64,000 nucleotides of DNA from positions 1-64,000 of the forward strand of contig JAIYAQ010000011.1 in NCBI GenBank assembly GCA_027488975.1. Direction: 5' to 3'. The notes beneath the pieces were generated by a model, which made no database searches, was not told the DNA's origin, and saw only the letters and a program-made list of their open reading frames with translations. The stretch comes from Cyanobium sp. E1_MAG_00006. Its GTDB lineage: Bacteria; Cyanobacteriota; Cyanobacteriia; PCC-6307; Cyanobiaceae. Position 1 is the first letter of the stretch, and the number at the start of each line of letters is the position of its first letter. The position numbers and the translations under genes were made by a program. Shown here piece after piece: positions 4,550-8,995 of this stretch.

Positions 4550-6214
4550 TCAGTGGGAGAACAGCAGCGGCTGCGGGGAGGCGTGTCGGCCCCGTCCGCG
4601 CCACCGCTGCTGCTGCAGCCAGGTCACGCCCTGGCAGAAGGCATCCACCAGGTCGTCATGGGCACCGCTGGGGAAACTCAGCAGTTCGCTCTGCAGCGCC
4701 TCCGTGGCGCGATGAAAGGCCAGCTGCCCCGCCTCCAGCAGCGGTGCCACGGCATGGGCGCGGCTCACCTTGCTCCCCTGCGGCCTCACGGCGATCAGAC
4801 CCGGCACCCGGCTGCGCAGCAGCTGGCACACGGCTGGTCCGTTGGCGGCGTCCTCAACCAGGACGGCATCAGGGTTCAGGCCCTGCCGCCTCAGGGCATC
4901 GAGGGTCTGCAGCAGGTAGTGCACGGTGGCCGGCAGATCGAGTTGATGCCTCTCGGCCCAGAGCACCTCGATCAGAGGTGCCGGCGGCCCCTCCTCTGCT
5001 GCAGTGGCCACGGCGGTGAGAGCGGCACTGCTGGGATGCAGGTTCAGACCCTGGCTGCGGGCCTGCTGCAGCGGATGGGGCTGGCTGCTCTGATCCACCG
5101 CCCCCAGCAGCACGAAGGCACAGGGATCGTGCTCTGCGCCCCCCTTGAAGGACAGATCACACGAGAGCACCAGCGGGGCGTAGGTCCGCGACGACATTCC
5201 CGCAGTGCGGACATTGGATCGCTGCAGCCACGCGCTGCGGAACAGCAGGCCCTCGGCGGGTGAGGGGCGTTGCTGGTACAGCGCTTCCCACCAGTAACGC
5301 CCGGCACGGATGCGGATCTGCTCGAGCTCACTCAGCGGAAACCGCTCCGGGCAGAGGGCCTCGCCGGGAGTTCTCCAGTCCGGTTCCACGCTGCAGGTGG
5401 GTGGAAACGGCAGTCGAGCGCTCTGCGGCTCAGCGATGGCGGGCAGATCGAGCACGTGCCAGTGCTGCGGAGCCTCACCCGCTTCCTGTTCCAGCAACCA
5501 GCCGATCAGATCGTCGTGATGCCACCTGGTGAGCACCACCACCTGGGCGGCACCGCTGCTGCCGTTCACCCCGGGCTCGGCACGGGTGAGCCAGACGGAC
5601 TGGAACCACTCGATCAGCTTCTGGCGCTGGGCACCGCTGCCGGCATCCTCAGGGCCTTTGTAGGGGTCATCGATCACACCGAGGGCATACCCCTTGCCGG
5701 TGAACGGTCCGCGCACCCCGGCGGCGATGCAGCCGCCACGCTGCGGCGTGAGCCAGTTGCCCACGGCCGTGGAATCGCGAGAGAGGGGATGGCCGCAGGA
5801 GCGGTAGAAGTGGCGCGCCTCCCGGCTGTGGGCATAGGCCAGCTCGGCGGAATAGGAGGCGATGGCGCAGAAGCGATGGGGGTATCGGCTCACCCAGTAC
5901 GCCGGAAAGAGCTTCGAGACCAGCAGCGACTTCCCCAGACGCGGCGGGCAGCAGACGATCAGGCGATGCAGCTCGCCATCAGCCACCCGCTGAAGCAGAG
6001 CAATGAGGCGTTCAGCCCAGGCGTGAAAGGCGTAGCCCGGATAGGCCGACGCGATGAAACGGCGGAAGTCCGCAGCAATGGCTGCGGTGGCAGTCCCCAG
6101 GGAGGGATCACGCACACCCAGAACGCCCCAGTCCCCCCAGGCATCGCCGGCTGTCGTCAGGAGCCCCTGCTGCTGCTGACCGAGAGCCGTGTCCGGCCAA
6201 GGGCACAGGGTCAT
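4550..6214 (-). CDS. terL: Phage terminase large subunit (packaging ATPase/nuclease)
   Basis: A 554-aa full-length large terminase. The ATPase half shows Walker A CPPRLGKS (about residue 90) and a Walker B-type VIDDP (about 180). The C-terminal RNase H-like nuclease half shows the acidic residues in LSCDLSFKGG (about 350), LVEDAANG (about 455) and GAHDDLVDAF (about 520). The protein pumps DNA into the prohead and cuts it at packaging termini, in complex with the small subunit and portal. Its ATG overlaps the small-subunit stop by 4 bp. No frameshift or missing catalytic residue is visible, so packaging function has been kept, which argues against a long-dead prophage. Confidence 0.93.
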   Translation of the reverse strand: MTLCPWPDTALGQQQQGLLTTAGDAWGDWGVLGVRDPSLGTATAAIAADFRRFIASAYPGYAFHAWAERLIALLQRVADGELHRLIVCCPPRLGKSLLVSKLFPAYWVSRYPHRFCAIASYSAELAYAHSREARHFYRSCGHPLSRDSTAVGNWLTPQRGGCIAAGVRGPFTGKGYALGVIDDPYKGPEDAGSGAQRQKLIEWFQSVWLTRAEPGVNGSSGAAQVVVLTRWHHDDLIGWLLEQEAGEAPQHWHVLDLPAIAEPQSARLPFPPTCSVEPDWRTPGEALCPERFPLSELEQIRIRAGRYWWEALYQQRPSPAEGLLFRSAWLQRSNVRTAGMSSRTYAPLVLSCDLSFKGGAEHDPCAFVLLGAVDQSSQPHPLQQARSQGLNLHPSSAALTAVATAAEEGPPAPLIEVLWAERHQLDLPATVHYLLQTLDALRRQGLNPDAVLVEDAANGPAVCQLLRSRVPGLIAVRPQGSKVSRAHAVAPLLEAGQLAFHRATEALQSELLSFPSGAHDDLVDAFCQGVTWLQQQRWRGRGRHASPQPLLFSH

Positions 6215-6801
6215 GGCCTGGGCTCCGGCGCCTTGAGGGGGGCTCGCAGCATGCCGGTCACTTCCGCCATCACCCGGTAGGCACCAACGGCGGCGTTGAA
6301 CTGTTCAGCGGCCATCGAGCGGCGGATCAGTTCCGACAACCCTTCGATGTAGGCCGCCTGGTGTTCCAGCCGGTTCTGAACCAGTTCCTCCACCATCCGC
6401 TGGCGGGCCAGCGACAGGTAGCGGCCCACCGTTTTGGTGTTGGTGATCCCCCAGTTTCGGGCAGCATTGTCCCGGATCTCGATCAGGGGAAGCCGCTGCG
6501 CGATCCAGAGCTGAGCCTCTGCGATGCGCCGCTCCACCTCCTGACGGCTGGGCCTGGGCGCGAAGGGCTTCTGAGGAGAGGGCCTGGGTGGCTGGCTGCA
6601 GCGAGGATGGCGGCCACCCTTACCGGAGCGGGATTCGCCGCCAGTCCCACGCCTGGAGCGTGGCTCCTGGCCAGTCCAGATGGGATGCCCGTCCTCATCC
6701 TCTGCCCCAGGCGCCCCGCGAAGATCCTCGATCGGATCACTCGAATCGGCACCAATCCCGCCTGGTGAATCGACCTCCGGTTTTTCGCCACGCGCAGCCA
6801 T
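6211..6801 (-). CDS. Putative terminase small subunit
   Basis: A 196-aa protein directly upstream of, and overlapping by 4 bp, the large terminase gene. Residues 1-85 are disordered and rich in Gly, Arg, Pro and Ser. Residues about 88-185 are helical (RRIAEAQLWIAQRLPLIEIR, then TKTVGRYLSLARQRMVEELV), compatible with the DNA-recognition helices and oligomerisation segment of small terminases. The role is to bind the packaging site and hand DNA to TerL. The call rests mainly on gene order and a helical, basic N-terminal architecture. A TATAAT box lies 24 bases before the start. Confidence 0.68.
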   Translation of the reverse strand: MAARGEKPEVDSPGGIGADSSDPIEDLRGAPGAEDEDGHPIWTGQEPRSRRGTGGESRSGKGGRHPRCSQPPRPSPQKPFAPRPSRQEVERRIAEAQLWIAQRLPLIEIRDNAARNWGITNTKTVGRYLSLARQRMVEELVQNRLEHQAAYIEGLSELIRRSMAAEQFNAAVGAYRVMAEVTGMLRAPLKAPEPRP

Positions 6802-6824
6802 CAGTGCGCCATCGTGCTTGACAC

Positions 6825-6830
6825 ATTATA
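6825..6830 (-). promoter_or_regulatory. Candidate -10 box of the packaging operon
   Basis: Read on the minus strand this is a perfect TATAAT, 24 bases before the ATG of the small-terminase gene. That would give a very short 5' leader. No good -35 hexamer lies 16-18 bases upstream, so an activator or alternative sigma may be needed. The inverted repeat at 6852-6889 sits just upstream. Confidence 0.45.
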
Positions 6831-6851
6831 GGCGCATCTTTTGGCCCTCTT

Positions 6852-6889
6852 GCTCACTCAAAAGCGCTGTTCTGTTCCCTTTTGTGAGC
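6852..6889. promoter_or_regulatory. Imperfect inverted repeat upstream of the packaging operon (candidate operator)
   Basis: GCTCAC at 6852-6857 and CAAAAG at 6859-6864 are mirrored by CTTTTG at 6879-6884 and GTGAGC at 6884-6889. The repeat lies 22-59 bases upstream of the TATAAT at 6825-6830, where an activator or repressor would bind. The CTCAC/GTGAG half-sites recur in the palindrome at 8813-8828. Confidence 0.4.
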
Positions 6890-7034
6890 GACAAGGAGAT
6901 GAAGATCCCTGCATCCGGCGCGCCAGTTTGTGCATCATGTTCATCGCTTGCTCGGTGCTCGTTGATGCGGCGCTCCTCGTGAGCACAAGGTCGCCTGCTG
7001 AGCGTCGGGTCACAGCAGGGCCGCCGCCCATGGC

Positions 7035-7183
7035 GGGGCGAGGAGGAACGCAGCACTGCCCCGGAACCGCACCCCTGTCGGGGTGCTCAAGGCATGCGGT
7101 CAAGGGCTGACGCGAGTGGCGCGTGCCGCGCCACCCCTGACCGCACACCTTGTCCGGGGCGATCGGGCGGCGTTCCTCGCCCC
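7035..7183. other. Nested inverted repeats forming a branched stem structure (candidate structured RNA or packaging/replication site)
   Basis: Four levels of complementarity nest in 149 bases. P1: 7035-7050 pairs with 7171-7183 (13 pairs, bulged AGG at 7044-7046). P2: GCCCCGGA at 7058-7065 pairs with TCCGGGGC at 7153-7160. Inside P2 are two hairpins. P3 is GCACCCC 7069-7075 with GGGGTGC 7080-7086, loop TGTC. P4 begins AAGG 7089-7092 with CCTT 7148-7151, continues TGCGGTCA 7095-7102 with TGACCGCA 7138-7145, then GGG/CCC, and ends GTGGCGCG 7116-7123 with CGCGCCAC 7127-7134, loop TGC. The only mismatch in the long stem is A7103 opposite C7137, which becomes a U-G wobble in a minus-strand transcript and so hints at that strand. 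I do not recognise the class. Confidence 0.6.
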
Positions 7184-7190
7184 TTTCTCC

Positions 7191-7403
7191 ATGGGCTCAA
7201 TCCCTCCCCGCTGCGAGATCCGCCGGCTGCTGCTCCACGCCTATGCCGATGGCATCAAAGGTGCCGAGCAGGAGCGCATCAGGGTTTACTACGGCCGTCG
7301 CGGCCGTCCTGTGAAGAAGCCGCGCTTCATCCCGGCTGAGCTGGCCCACCAGCTGGCCCGCAAGCTCGCGGCACGCGGCCTGGGCACGGTTTCGGTGCTC
7401 TGA
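7191..7403 (+). CDS. Small basic protein of unknown function, 70 aa (uncertain)
   Basis: An ATG at 7191 opens a 70-aa frame rich in Arg and Lys (RVYYGRRGRPVKKPRF in the middle, then a helix LAHQLARKLAARGLG). The composition resembles a small nucleic-acid-binding protein, but there is no recognised family. The start lies 7 bases after the end of the branched structure and has no clear Shine-Dalgarno sequence, so the structure could be its leader, or the frame could be fortuitous. It is transcribed opposite to the genes on both sides. Confidence 0.38.
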   Translation: MGSIPPRCEIRRLLLHAYADGIKGAEQERIRVYYGRRGRPVKKPRFIPAELAHQLARKLAARGLGTVSVL

Positions 7404-7472
7404 GCCGCATGGGCGCCCGGGCCACGGCTCGGGCGCTTTCTCAGCACGACAGCGGCGGGTGATCAAGTGCCT

Positions 7473-8663
7473 TCAGACGAGGCGTTTCTGAAACTTCCAG
7501 CCCCGGTTCTGGCCTCCCTGAGGATCACTTCTGGCGACAACGAACCAATCCGGGAAATCCGAAAGTGGCTTTGGCAATGGCCCCTTCTCGCAGGTCTTTC
7601 GAGCATGCCGTTTGAGGGTGTCGGTAGAGACGTGCAATTTTTTGGCCAGCTGCTCTGAGGTGAACACTTCCGGTGCGAGATCGGGACCTGGCACTGGGTT
7701 GTGGGTCAGGGGGACCAGGAGGCCACTGCTGAGTTGCCGCTGTTCACCCTCGGGTGATGCCAGTCCCACCTGGGCATGGATCAGGTTGAGCACGATCCGG
7801 TTGAACTTGATGCTCTGATCTGGCGTGATCCCCTGCTGGTTCAGCTGCCACCAGTCGATGAGTGCGCGCATCGACTCGCGTGTCTTGCCGGGGATCTCGT
7901 CTGATCGCAGGAAAGGGAGCAGCTGCTTCAGCAGCTTGCGGCTGTCCTCGCCAGTCGGATCGATGGTCGGCCCAGCTTGGAGCTGCTCCGGGGGCGATGG
8001 CTGATCATGGCGTCTGCCTTGGCGATGCTCTGCCGGAAACGCCAGGCGCGGAACGGCATGGATCCGCATCGGACCCTGCAGATCAGCGAGGCCGAGCTCT
8101 CCGAAAGGCGCAATCGTGCTGATCGCATCAAACCCAATGCCGCACTCAATGGCGGGGAAACGGGGCGCCAAGGCCTCTGCCGTGCGGCGCAGCGATTCGG
8201 TGCTGGCCTCGAAAACCCTCTCCAGACCGGTGCTCTGGATGCAAAGGCCCTCAATCAGCCCGCGGCAAGGGTTGACGATCTCCGCGAGCCGCTGCCGACG
8301 CTCCTCCTCCGCCTCGAGGAGTGGATGCATAGCCCGGATGGCGTTGAAGCCGGCAGTGATCTGCTGGATGCGCTGCAGGTCTGCGCTGATCAGATTCCCG
8401 ATCTGATTTCCCAGCGGCGCGATTCCGCCCACATTGAACTGGAGCGCCAGGGCCTTGGCGGCTTCACCTCTGCAGACATCAGAAAGTGCAGCGCTACCCA
8501 GTTGTTGCCGGGCCAGGGCGATCCCTGCCTGTAGAGCCTGCTGATCAGCCACCCTTACGCCAAGCGGAGAGGGTGCCGAAGAAGCGTCAGGCTTGTCGTG
8601 TCCCCCCGGCGTCCTTCGGCCACTCCTTGCGGTCCTGGCCCCTGCTCGCATTCCCCTGGACAT
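7473..8663 (-). CDS. Unrecognised protein with C-terminal helix-turn-helix, up to 396 aa
   Basis: A long leftward frame next to the element border. The last 60 residues contain a HTH of the excisionase/MerR-like kind (VFTSEQLAKKLHVSTDTLKRHA near residue 340) followed by a wing-like WKFQKR end. The central part (about 60-330) is helical with no recognised domain. No tyrosine- or serine-recombinase motif is visible, so it is not an obvious integrase. The first 35 residues are low complexity; a GTG at 8552 (VADQQALQAG) is a plausible alternative start. Position at the att-proximal end suggests a regulator or initiator of the element; this is inference. Confidence 0.6.
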   Translation of the reverse strand: MSRGMRAGARTARSGRRTPGGHDKPDASSAPSPLGVRVADQQALQAGIALARQQLGSAALSDVCRGEAAKALALQFNVGGIAPLGNQIGNLISADLQRIQQITAGFNAIRAMHPLLEAEEERRQRLAEIVNPCRGLIEGLCIQSTGLERVFEASTESLRRTAEALAPRFPAIECGIGFDAISTIAPFGELGLADLQGPMRIHAVPRLAFPAEHRQGRRHDQPSPPEQLQAGPTIDPTGEDSRKLLKQLLPFLRSDEIPGKTRESMRALIDWWQLNQQGITPDQSIKFNRIVLNLIHAQVGLASPEGEQRQLSSGLLVPLTHNPVPGPDLAPEVFTSEQLAKKLHVSTDTLKRHARKTCEKGPLPKPLSDFPDWFVVARSDPQGGQNRGWKFQKRLV

Positions 8664-8940
8664 GCCACTGATCGCGGGTCGAGCCCCACGCCGCAGCGGC
8701 GAGGCTCATCTGAGACGAATTGTAGCGGGTTTTTCCCATCTGCTCCCTGGCGTGCACACCACTGCTAGTGGCAAAGCACCTCCGGCCAAGGCCCAGGGCC
8801 CCACCCCTGGAATCTCACCCCCGTGAGACAAGCCCTCGCCCAGAGCCCGGCGATGCGCAGATGGGAACAGCTGCGACCGTTGATAGGCATCACGTAGTCA
8901 CGTCCTCGCCGAGATCCCTTGCTATACCTGAGCTCCGGGC
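8664..8940. other. Non-coding border region of the element
   Basis: No credible protein gene lies between the HTH-protein start (8663) and the tRNA fragment (8941). The stretch contains two palindromes: CCACT-GCT-AGTGG at 8759-8771 and TCTCAC-CCCC-GTGAGA at 8813-8828. The second shares half-sites with the repeat upstream of the terminase operon. Regulatory sites for the adjacent leftward gene or recombinase binding sites near the att core are both possible. Confidence 0.45.
8813..8828. promoter_or_regulatory. Perfect 6-bp palindrome with CCCC spacer (candidate operator)
   Basis: TCTCAC at 8813-8818 and GTGAGA at 8823-8828 are exact reverse complements across four C bases. It lies about 150 bases before the HTH-protein start. 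The CTCAC/GTGAG half-site also occurs at 6852-6889, as expected if one element-encoded regulator binds both; the functional role is inferred. Confidence 0.4.
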
Positions 8941-8985
8941 TGACTCATAATCCGCCTTAGGCGAGTTCGATCCTCGCGACCCCCA
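8941..8985 (+). repeat. 3' fragment of a CAU-anticodon tRNA: attachment-site scar
   Basis: The sequence matches the 3' half of a tRNA: loop CTCATAA at 8944-8950 (anticodon CAT at 8946-8948), 3' anticodon stem TCCGC at 8951-8955, variable loop CTTAG, T stem GCGAG/CTCGC at 8961-8965 and 8973-8977 around TTCGATC, acceptor strand GACCCCC at 8978-8984 and discriminator A at 8985. A matching 5' half (GGGGGTC acceptor, D arm) is absent in the 80 bases upstream, and the 5' anticodon stem has a mismatch at its third pair. It is therefore not a functional tRNA. Such fragments are left when an element integrates into a tRNA 3' end. Elongator Met and Ile2 identity cannot be separated from this half. Confidence 0.8.
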
Positions 8986-8995
8986 TCTGATCGCG

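Follow-up and report, generated by a model that had tools for sequence, protein, structure and literature searches.

A structured leader on the start codon of a small orphan gene in a Cyanobium mobile element, and its recurrence before other mobile-element genes

Introduction

The window analyzed here, a 64,000-nucleotide stretch of DNA from Cyanobium sp. E1_MAG_00006, contains within a mobile element a segment of roughly 150 bases that folds on paper into a closed, multi-branched structure and lies beside a terminase gene pair. The initial annotation read it as an unclassified structure with a polarity towards the terminase operon, and offered a new noncoding RNA, a long structured leader, or a packaging or replication site upstream of terS as candidate functions. 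Which gene does this structure belong to, and what might it do there?

Results

The structure closes on the start codon of a small gene

Folding both strands of positions 7025-7195 against dinucleotide shuffles, as the initial annotation had proposed, gave a minimum free energy (MFE) of -110.8 kcal/mol for the plus strand (shuffles mean -81.0, sd 4.4; z -6.7), which 0 of 200 shuffles reached, and of -120.5 kcal/mol for the minus strand (z -8.3), which 0 of 200 equaled. The folded stretch is a genuine structure, far from chance. All stems listed earlier are present in the plus-strand MFE fold, slightly shifted; the outer boundary placed on them missed one further helix, P1, which is the outermost. 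The features of the region are as follows, with helices from the MFE fold.

7027..7195, plus strand: closed structured leader, about 165 nt (folds of both strands, consensus fold of 11 relatives, covariation)
7027-7033/7189-7195, plus strand: P1, 7 pairs; the 3' arm includes the ATG of P0001
7035-7045/7173-7183, plus strand: P2, 11 pairs
7049-7051/7167-7169, plus strand: P3, 3 pairs
7057-7065/7153-7161, plus strand: P4, 9 pairs
7069-7075/7080-7086, plus strand: P5 hairpin, 7 pairs
7088-7092/7148-7152, plus strand: P6, base of the long hairpin, 5 pairs
7095-7102/7138-7145 (8 pairs) and 7104-7106/7135-7137 (3 pairs), plus strand: P7 of the long hairpin
7116-7123/7127-7134, plus strand: apical stem of the long hairpin P6/P7 (7088..7152), 8 pairs
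7101..7116, plus strand: conserved core CAAGGGCTGACGCGAG, in which 7107-7115 form an unpaired 9-nt bulge
7191-7403, plus strand: P0001, gene for a small protein of 70 aa (ORF with its ATG inside P1; relatives)
7413..7443, plus strand: terminator-like hairpin with a T run, just 3' of the P0001 stop (hairpin scan)
6211..6801, minus strand: TerS-like gene, divergent from the leader (position beside TerL; relatives in contigs L223-L226; PHROG matches weak and function-less)
4550..6214, minus strand: TerL gene (phrog_38, E 1.3e-80; Pfam Terminase_6C)

P0001, which is absent from the list of genes in the window, opens at the ATG of P1, so that its start codon is paired in the window's own closed fold. 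Leader, P0001 and terminator-like hairpin make up a unit of about 415 bp that diverges from the TerS-like gene. A stricter terminator scan (five T in eight) passes over the hairpin at 7413-7443; among relatives of P0001, terminator-like hairpins follow the stop codon in 57 of 114 cases, compared to 15 of 181 random positions. No sigma-70 promoter-like site was found on either strand of 6780-7480 with a strict consensus, a search confined to this region of the window. In 76 of 119 P0001 copies the reading frame stays open on the upstream side, and an N-terminal extension is formally possible.

The window segment itself has one copy in its own genome at E 0.001, while a single-sequence search for relatives of P0001 in the window's family (Cyanobiaceae) was positive for 65 of 300 genomes, with up to 9 copies per genome, and a profile search for 83 of 400. 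In a draw across the phylum, 9 of 386 genomes had a relative, all of them within the window's family, and 30 IMG/VR contigs also carry one. One further relative sits on a contig labelled as a Bifidobacterium breve MAG (L074), which is probably misbinned, and a relative in the window's own genome (G000:C36:27527-27715) contains an in-frame TAG.

An alignment of 66 P0001 members (A4) has six invariant columns, and AlphaFold2 predicts a beta-beta-alpha-beta arrangement with a mean pLDDT of 77. P0001 had no match in Pfam or NCBIfam and a single weak one in PHROGs (E 0.074); Pfam over the 66 members returned three families only, at E 0.017 or weaker. A PDB sequence search with A4 found nothing at E 5, and neither PDB nor BFVD offered a match to the predicted fold at E 0.001. 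An HNH endonuclease that headed the BFVD fold rows was set aside, as those rows are weak. Phage records held no match at the protein level, and plasmids none in a DNA-level search.

Two side observations concern the surroundings. An inverted repeat (GCTCACTCAAAAG / CTTTTGTGAGC) at 6852-6889, between terS and the leader, is operator-like. At about 8937-8986 lies the 3' part of a tRNA, tRNA-Met by eye (anticodon loop CTCATAA), which ARAGORN did not call; it is probably the attachment-site end of an integrated element, and its second match in the genome is partial only.

The leader is conserved and its helices covary

In L075, a viral contig with the window's layout, the leader (7027-7190) is identical to that of the window at 144 of 164 positions (88%) and the P0001 gene at 180 of 213 (85%), compared to 112 of 225 (50%) for the upstream flank. 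The leader is therefore as conserved as the gene in this pair, and the upstream flank is not.

To extend the comparison, 198 profile hits were reduced to 119 distinct P0001 copies by leaving out those that lacked a start codon, were partial (model start >20 or end <60), lay at contig edges or were duplicates. With 5 and 2 further leaders, seven in all from other families, these formed a set of 126, of which the 125 without N were used for folding and start-codon pairing. The mean folding z was -2.7 in the 125 leaders and -0.5 in control windows, and z fell below -3 in 48 of 125 leaders compared to 4 of 126 control windows. Unstructured homologues had been named earlier as counter-evidence to the structure: as a set the leaders are structured, but singly 77 of 125 do not fall below z -3, and most are unremarkable individually.

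Covariation had also been proposed as a test, and it came out in favor of the fold. In an alignment of 11 of 15 close relatives (A5), 11 of the 63 pairs of the consensus are compensated on both sides, whereas shuffles gave 4.2 on average and 0 of 500 reached 11; slid versions of the alignment had at most 4 such pairs. These changes fall in P1 (2), P5 (2 of 6 pairs) and the long hairpin (7 of 17). No pair of P2-P4 shows a two-sided change, which for P4 follows from its being nearly invariant. The shuffle controls used for covariation, here and below, remove relatedness among the sequences only in part. A default MAFFT alignment of mixed families (A2) was left out because it misaligned P2 and P4.

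The central hairpin is absent or replaced in some relatives (L039, L040, L044, L047; L049, L050). In L049, L050, L076, L125 and L167 it is swapped for other sequence while P0001 and the remaining leader are kept, as though a hypervariable insert occupied this position in these leaders.

Pairing of the start codon is common among the leaders and not universal. A Watson-Crick helix of at least 7 pairs covers the ATG in 39 of 125 leaders, in 119 of 746 swapped pairs and in 0 of 124 control windows, and in 47 of 125 the ATG lies outside any Watson-Crick helix. Two sequence versions of the stem that covers the start codon exist, CCATGG/CCATGG and GCCATCAC/GTGATGGC.

A shared core motif precedes other gene families

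The best-conserved piece of the leader is the unpaired stretch of the long hairpin, CAAGGG-CUGACGCRA-G, with a bulge of 8-9 nt. It occurs in variants such as CUGCGCAA, CUACGCAA, CUUCGCGA and UUUCACGA and in a second form, CAAGGAUCAGGCC; by the patterns used, 33 of 119 P0001 leaders lack it. A search of 25 genus genomes found the first form 21 times and the reversed pattern not once. At 17 of the 21 places (hand count) a same-strand gene follows that belongs to a recurrent family, namely F2 (six), F4 (five), F1 (three, the window among them), ArdC-type (two) and F6 (one). With a looser pattern, 182 of 390 family genomes are positive; summed by hand over the 25 genomes of the genus, it gave 69 hits and its reversed control 8, so some of the looser-pattern hits are chance. 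The gene families below were counted only from loci read individually, and their mutual unrelatedness was judged by eye and by Pfam.

F1: the P0001 family
F2: small paralogue of F1, judged by eye; no Pfam match at E 0.01
F3: ArdcN plus zincin-like metallopeptidase (PF08401, PF18818)
F4: about 95 aa; no Pfam match at E 0.01
F5: SLOG YAcAr (PF10686)
F6: 65 aa; no Pfam match at E 0.01
F7: 174 aa; no Pfam match at E 0.01
Sigma-70 protein family behind leaders (PF04542, PF08281)

The core hairpin thus stands before antirestriction-like ArdC/zincin genes, before genes for SLOG and sigma-70 proteins and before small orphans, some of them arranged as same-strand series. Twelve further stretches chosen for their motif clusters contain 35 motif places, of which 29 (hand count) stand before a gene whose family is recurrent or has a Pfam name; between the leader-bearing genes stand others without a recognized leader. 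The unit order is F7-F6-F1 in both L271 and L277, and F6-F4-ArdC in L268, L270 and L274. Taking each stretch as one element, L274 has leaders before F6, F4 and the ArdcN-zincin gene, and L271 has five motif places, one of them preceding an ArdcN-zincin gene. On IMG/VR contigs L224-L226 three leader units stand in series ahead of TerS, a place taken by a single unit in the window; these contigs, which hold TerS relatives, were rejected as examples of an empty site, as the three units occupy that position. Model R1 matched two places in the window's own genome and, across the phylum, 5 of 367 genomes, all in the window's family. A second leader of the class lies in the window's own genome (G000:C24:16592-16674), before an F2-type small gene.

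To ask for covariation across families, 104 cores were narrowed to 60 with short loops and 35 non-redundant ones, 33 of which were aligned (A3). The covariation score of these core hairpins, which belong to several gene families, was 0.277 compared to 0.088 in shuffles, 0 of 500 being as high, and slid versions of the alignment scored at most 0.143. Two of five measures were weak: pairs with two-sided change numbered 6 compared to 4.6 (57 of 500 shuffles as high), and pair types 15 compared to 12.1 (30 of 500). Separately, the A3 bulge often ends in C-GNRA-G (GCGA, GCAA), which could make a two-pair mini-hairpin and, with it, a three-way junction.

The recurrence of this core before seemingly unrelated genes suggests a shared RNA switch, and leaders with a common core look like a shared regulatory tag. 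A different account of the repeated pairing of structure and gene is a mobile cassette with attC-like ends that recombine as folded single-stranded DNA, in which case the tie would reflect joint movement. The up to 9 P0001-family copies per genome, in differing surroundings, would agree with this. However, the constant unit is the structure plus its downstream gene, with the start codon in or beside the fold, and in some stretches the units follow one another in much the same order (L271/L277; L268/L270/L274), and we regard a cassette as highly improbable.

Position ties the leader to the plus-strand gene and not to the terminase operon

The recurring partner of the structure in relatives is the plus-strand gene directly downstream, which leaves the polarity towards the terminase operon proposed in the initial annotation unsupported. 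The idea of a long structured leader survives with a different gene behind it, as the leader of plus-strand P0001 and not of the terminase operon. No support was found for a noncoding RNA directed at terS, nor for a terS-linked site of packaging or replication, the latter because the element also precedes ArdC-type, SLOG, sigma and other genes. The window's TerS was matched at 3 of 83 loci, two of which are the window itself; this is weak evidence, as TerS diverges fast. A relative of the window's portal gene lies nearby in 8 of 23 loci.

Energies and mismatches were also compared between the strands. In 104 of 125 leaders the minus strand folds to the lower MFE, and the mismatch A7103/C7137, which becomes a U-G pair on a minus-strand transcript, had been taken as a clue to polarity. 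An A.C is indeed present at this position in 6 of 33 core hairpins, window included, but a general strand test did not decide the matter. In Watson-Crick-only folds, single mismatches (A.C:G.T) were 94:49 in leaders and 151:94 in controls, a count that used 95 of the 126 leaders and left out group folds derived from the plus strand, as these favor G.T. In the core hairpins, A.C accounts for 9 cells and G.T for 16. Wobble pairing is accordingly not decisive for the strand. The lower minus-strand energy was dropped as a sign of antisense RNA or single-stranded DNA, the mismatch ratio being about that of the control; A/C-rich loops in a plus-strand RNA would likewise lower the energy of the minus strand. 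Position favors the plus strand, because the partner that recurs lies on it and the stop codon of this gene has a terminator-like hairpin behind it more often than random positions do.

A structured antisense RNA that is made from the minus strand and silences the P0001 message by pairing would account for the lower minus-strand MFE and for the 6 of 33 cores in which A.C replaces A.T at one P7 pair. Since the mismatch count lies near the control and the G.T cells of the core hairpin exceed the A.C cells, we consider such an RNA very unlikely.

Discussion

Comparison with known systems

An Rfam search, another of the checks proposed at the outset, yielded no family that fits. At the gathering score, Rfam 15 found two tRNAs only in the window, and in the loci of 20 relatives one guanidine-I riboswitch plus one tRNA, both away from the leaders; between 6850 and 7300 there were seven matches up to E 5, five of them to miRNA families and all far under gathering. 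The guanidine-I riboswitch (L206:1903-1997, 81 bits) is on a stretch that also carries an F4-type leader. Like the riboswitches and cis-regulatory leaders of Rfam, the leaders described here are conserved structures upstream of a gene with conserved unpaired residues; unlike them, they precede mobile-element genes and no metabolic pathway. Among the matches listed in a literature search that reached few subscription papers and no preprints, none dealt with leaders of this kind from Cyanobium, Synechococcus or the phages of either, a silence that is weak evidence of novelty.

Closest in arrangement is EGeRS1 of the Bacillus plasmid pLS20. According to excerpts of the published report, its structured conserved sequences precede ardC as well as four further operons, a search for sigma promoters found none, read-through is blocked in the native orientation, and the authors call the mechanism unknown (PMC8708921). 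As here, several structured copies per element lie directly upstream of ardC and establishment genes, whereas EGeRS1 measures 420-750 bp, by the same excerpts, against about 165 here (PMC8708921). EGeRS1 belongs to conjugative plasmids of Bacillus and the present leaders to phage-type elements of cyanobacteria; the read-through block is shown for EGeRS1, and for the present leaders it would be one possible mode of action. The pLS20 ardC is annotated as zincin-like, and in our own fold of its leader the outer stem closes about 25 nt before the start codon. Model R1 found nothing at E 1 or better in pLS20 40000-65000 (L279, a 25-kb stretch), and the best blastn match there was 20 nt long (E 2.2). 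EGeRS1 is the nearest known system; in our best reading the leaders would work like it, with no sequence relation detected.

Frpo/ssi regions (F, ColIb-P9) share a structured region upstream of early anti-host genes, although the window region has no -35/-10 pair and the context here is phage. A single-stranded DNA promoter of this kind, in which the strand opposite the gene folds and anti-host genes are transcribed from entering single-stranded DNA, would explain why antirestriction-like and small genes on one strand each have a structured upstream region, and why the minus strand, the template, is the better-folding one in 104 of 125 leaders. Against it, the unbiased mismatch count lies near the control. 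Tailed phages, to which the portal-gene relatives near 8 of 23 loci point, deliver double-stranded DNA, and the stems are GC-rich up to the ATG. In the part of its report consulted, Frpo is described by -35/-10 and UP elements within the fold, in contrast to the window region, and as serving antirestriction-like or early anti-host genes, much like those found here (PMC11541004). We judge a Frpo-type promoter quite unlikely, and less likely than an EGeRS1-like leader.

Early mRNA of phage T7 has RNase III sites between its genes, and these too combine a hairpin and an asymmetric internal loop between same-strand genes. If the leaders were intercistronic processing sites, the long hairpin with its asymmetric bulge would free each gene from a longer transcript; the same-strand genes with one leader each, and the length of the P7 helix, with its asymmetric internal loop, are consistent with this. 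Here, however, the fold is larger and multi-branched, extending through P1-P5 to the start codon, which it pairs in many copies; the conservation of the bulge sequence is far above that known for such sites; and single units exist with their own terminator-like hairpin. Processing by RNase III is thus an unlikely explanation.

A model for the leaders

Given the observed structure and covariation, the cis position before the gene and the recurrence before other genes, we moderately favor a new, cis-acting structured 5' leader RNA that gates P0001 and an establishment-type gene set. We infer folding as RNA and not DNA, as well as the off state, the common factor and the timing. Transcription would start upstream of 7027, and the leader transcript would fold into the closed multi-branched structure that finishes on the P0001 start codon, with the transcript probably stopping at the hairpin at 7413-7443. 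During residence of the element, the closed fold would keep the gene off, either by burying the start region or by blocking read-through from neighbors. On entry or induction of the element, a common factor would bind the conserved bulge and open the leader.

More tentatively, and with considerable doubt, the leaders may define an RNA-tagged establishment regulon, in which unrelated anti-host and regulatory genes share one new leader class and are opened together by a single factor recognizing the bulge. Within the window, only P0001 was found with such a leader, and this small basic protein may therefore bind its own leader.

How anti-host genes stay silent during residence and switch on at entry is, in the excerpts of its report, an open question for EGeRS1 (PMC8708921). 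If the model is true, the leaders of Cyanobiaceae would provide one more example, apparently unrelated to the first and far shorter, from a different phylum and from phage-type elements. More than 100 natural leader variants are at hand, and covariation already points to bases worth testing. The core motif would also serve as a handle for finding unnamed gene families, possibly anti-host, in freshwater phototrophs.
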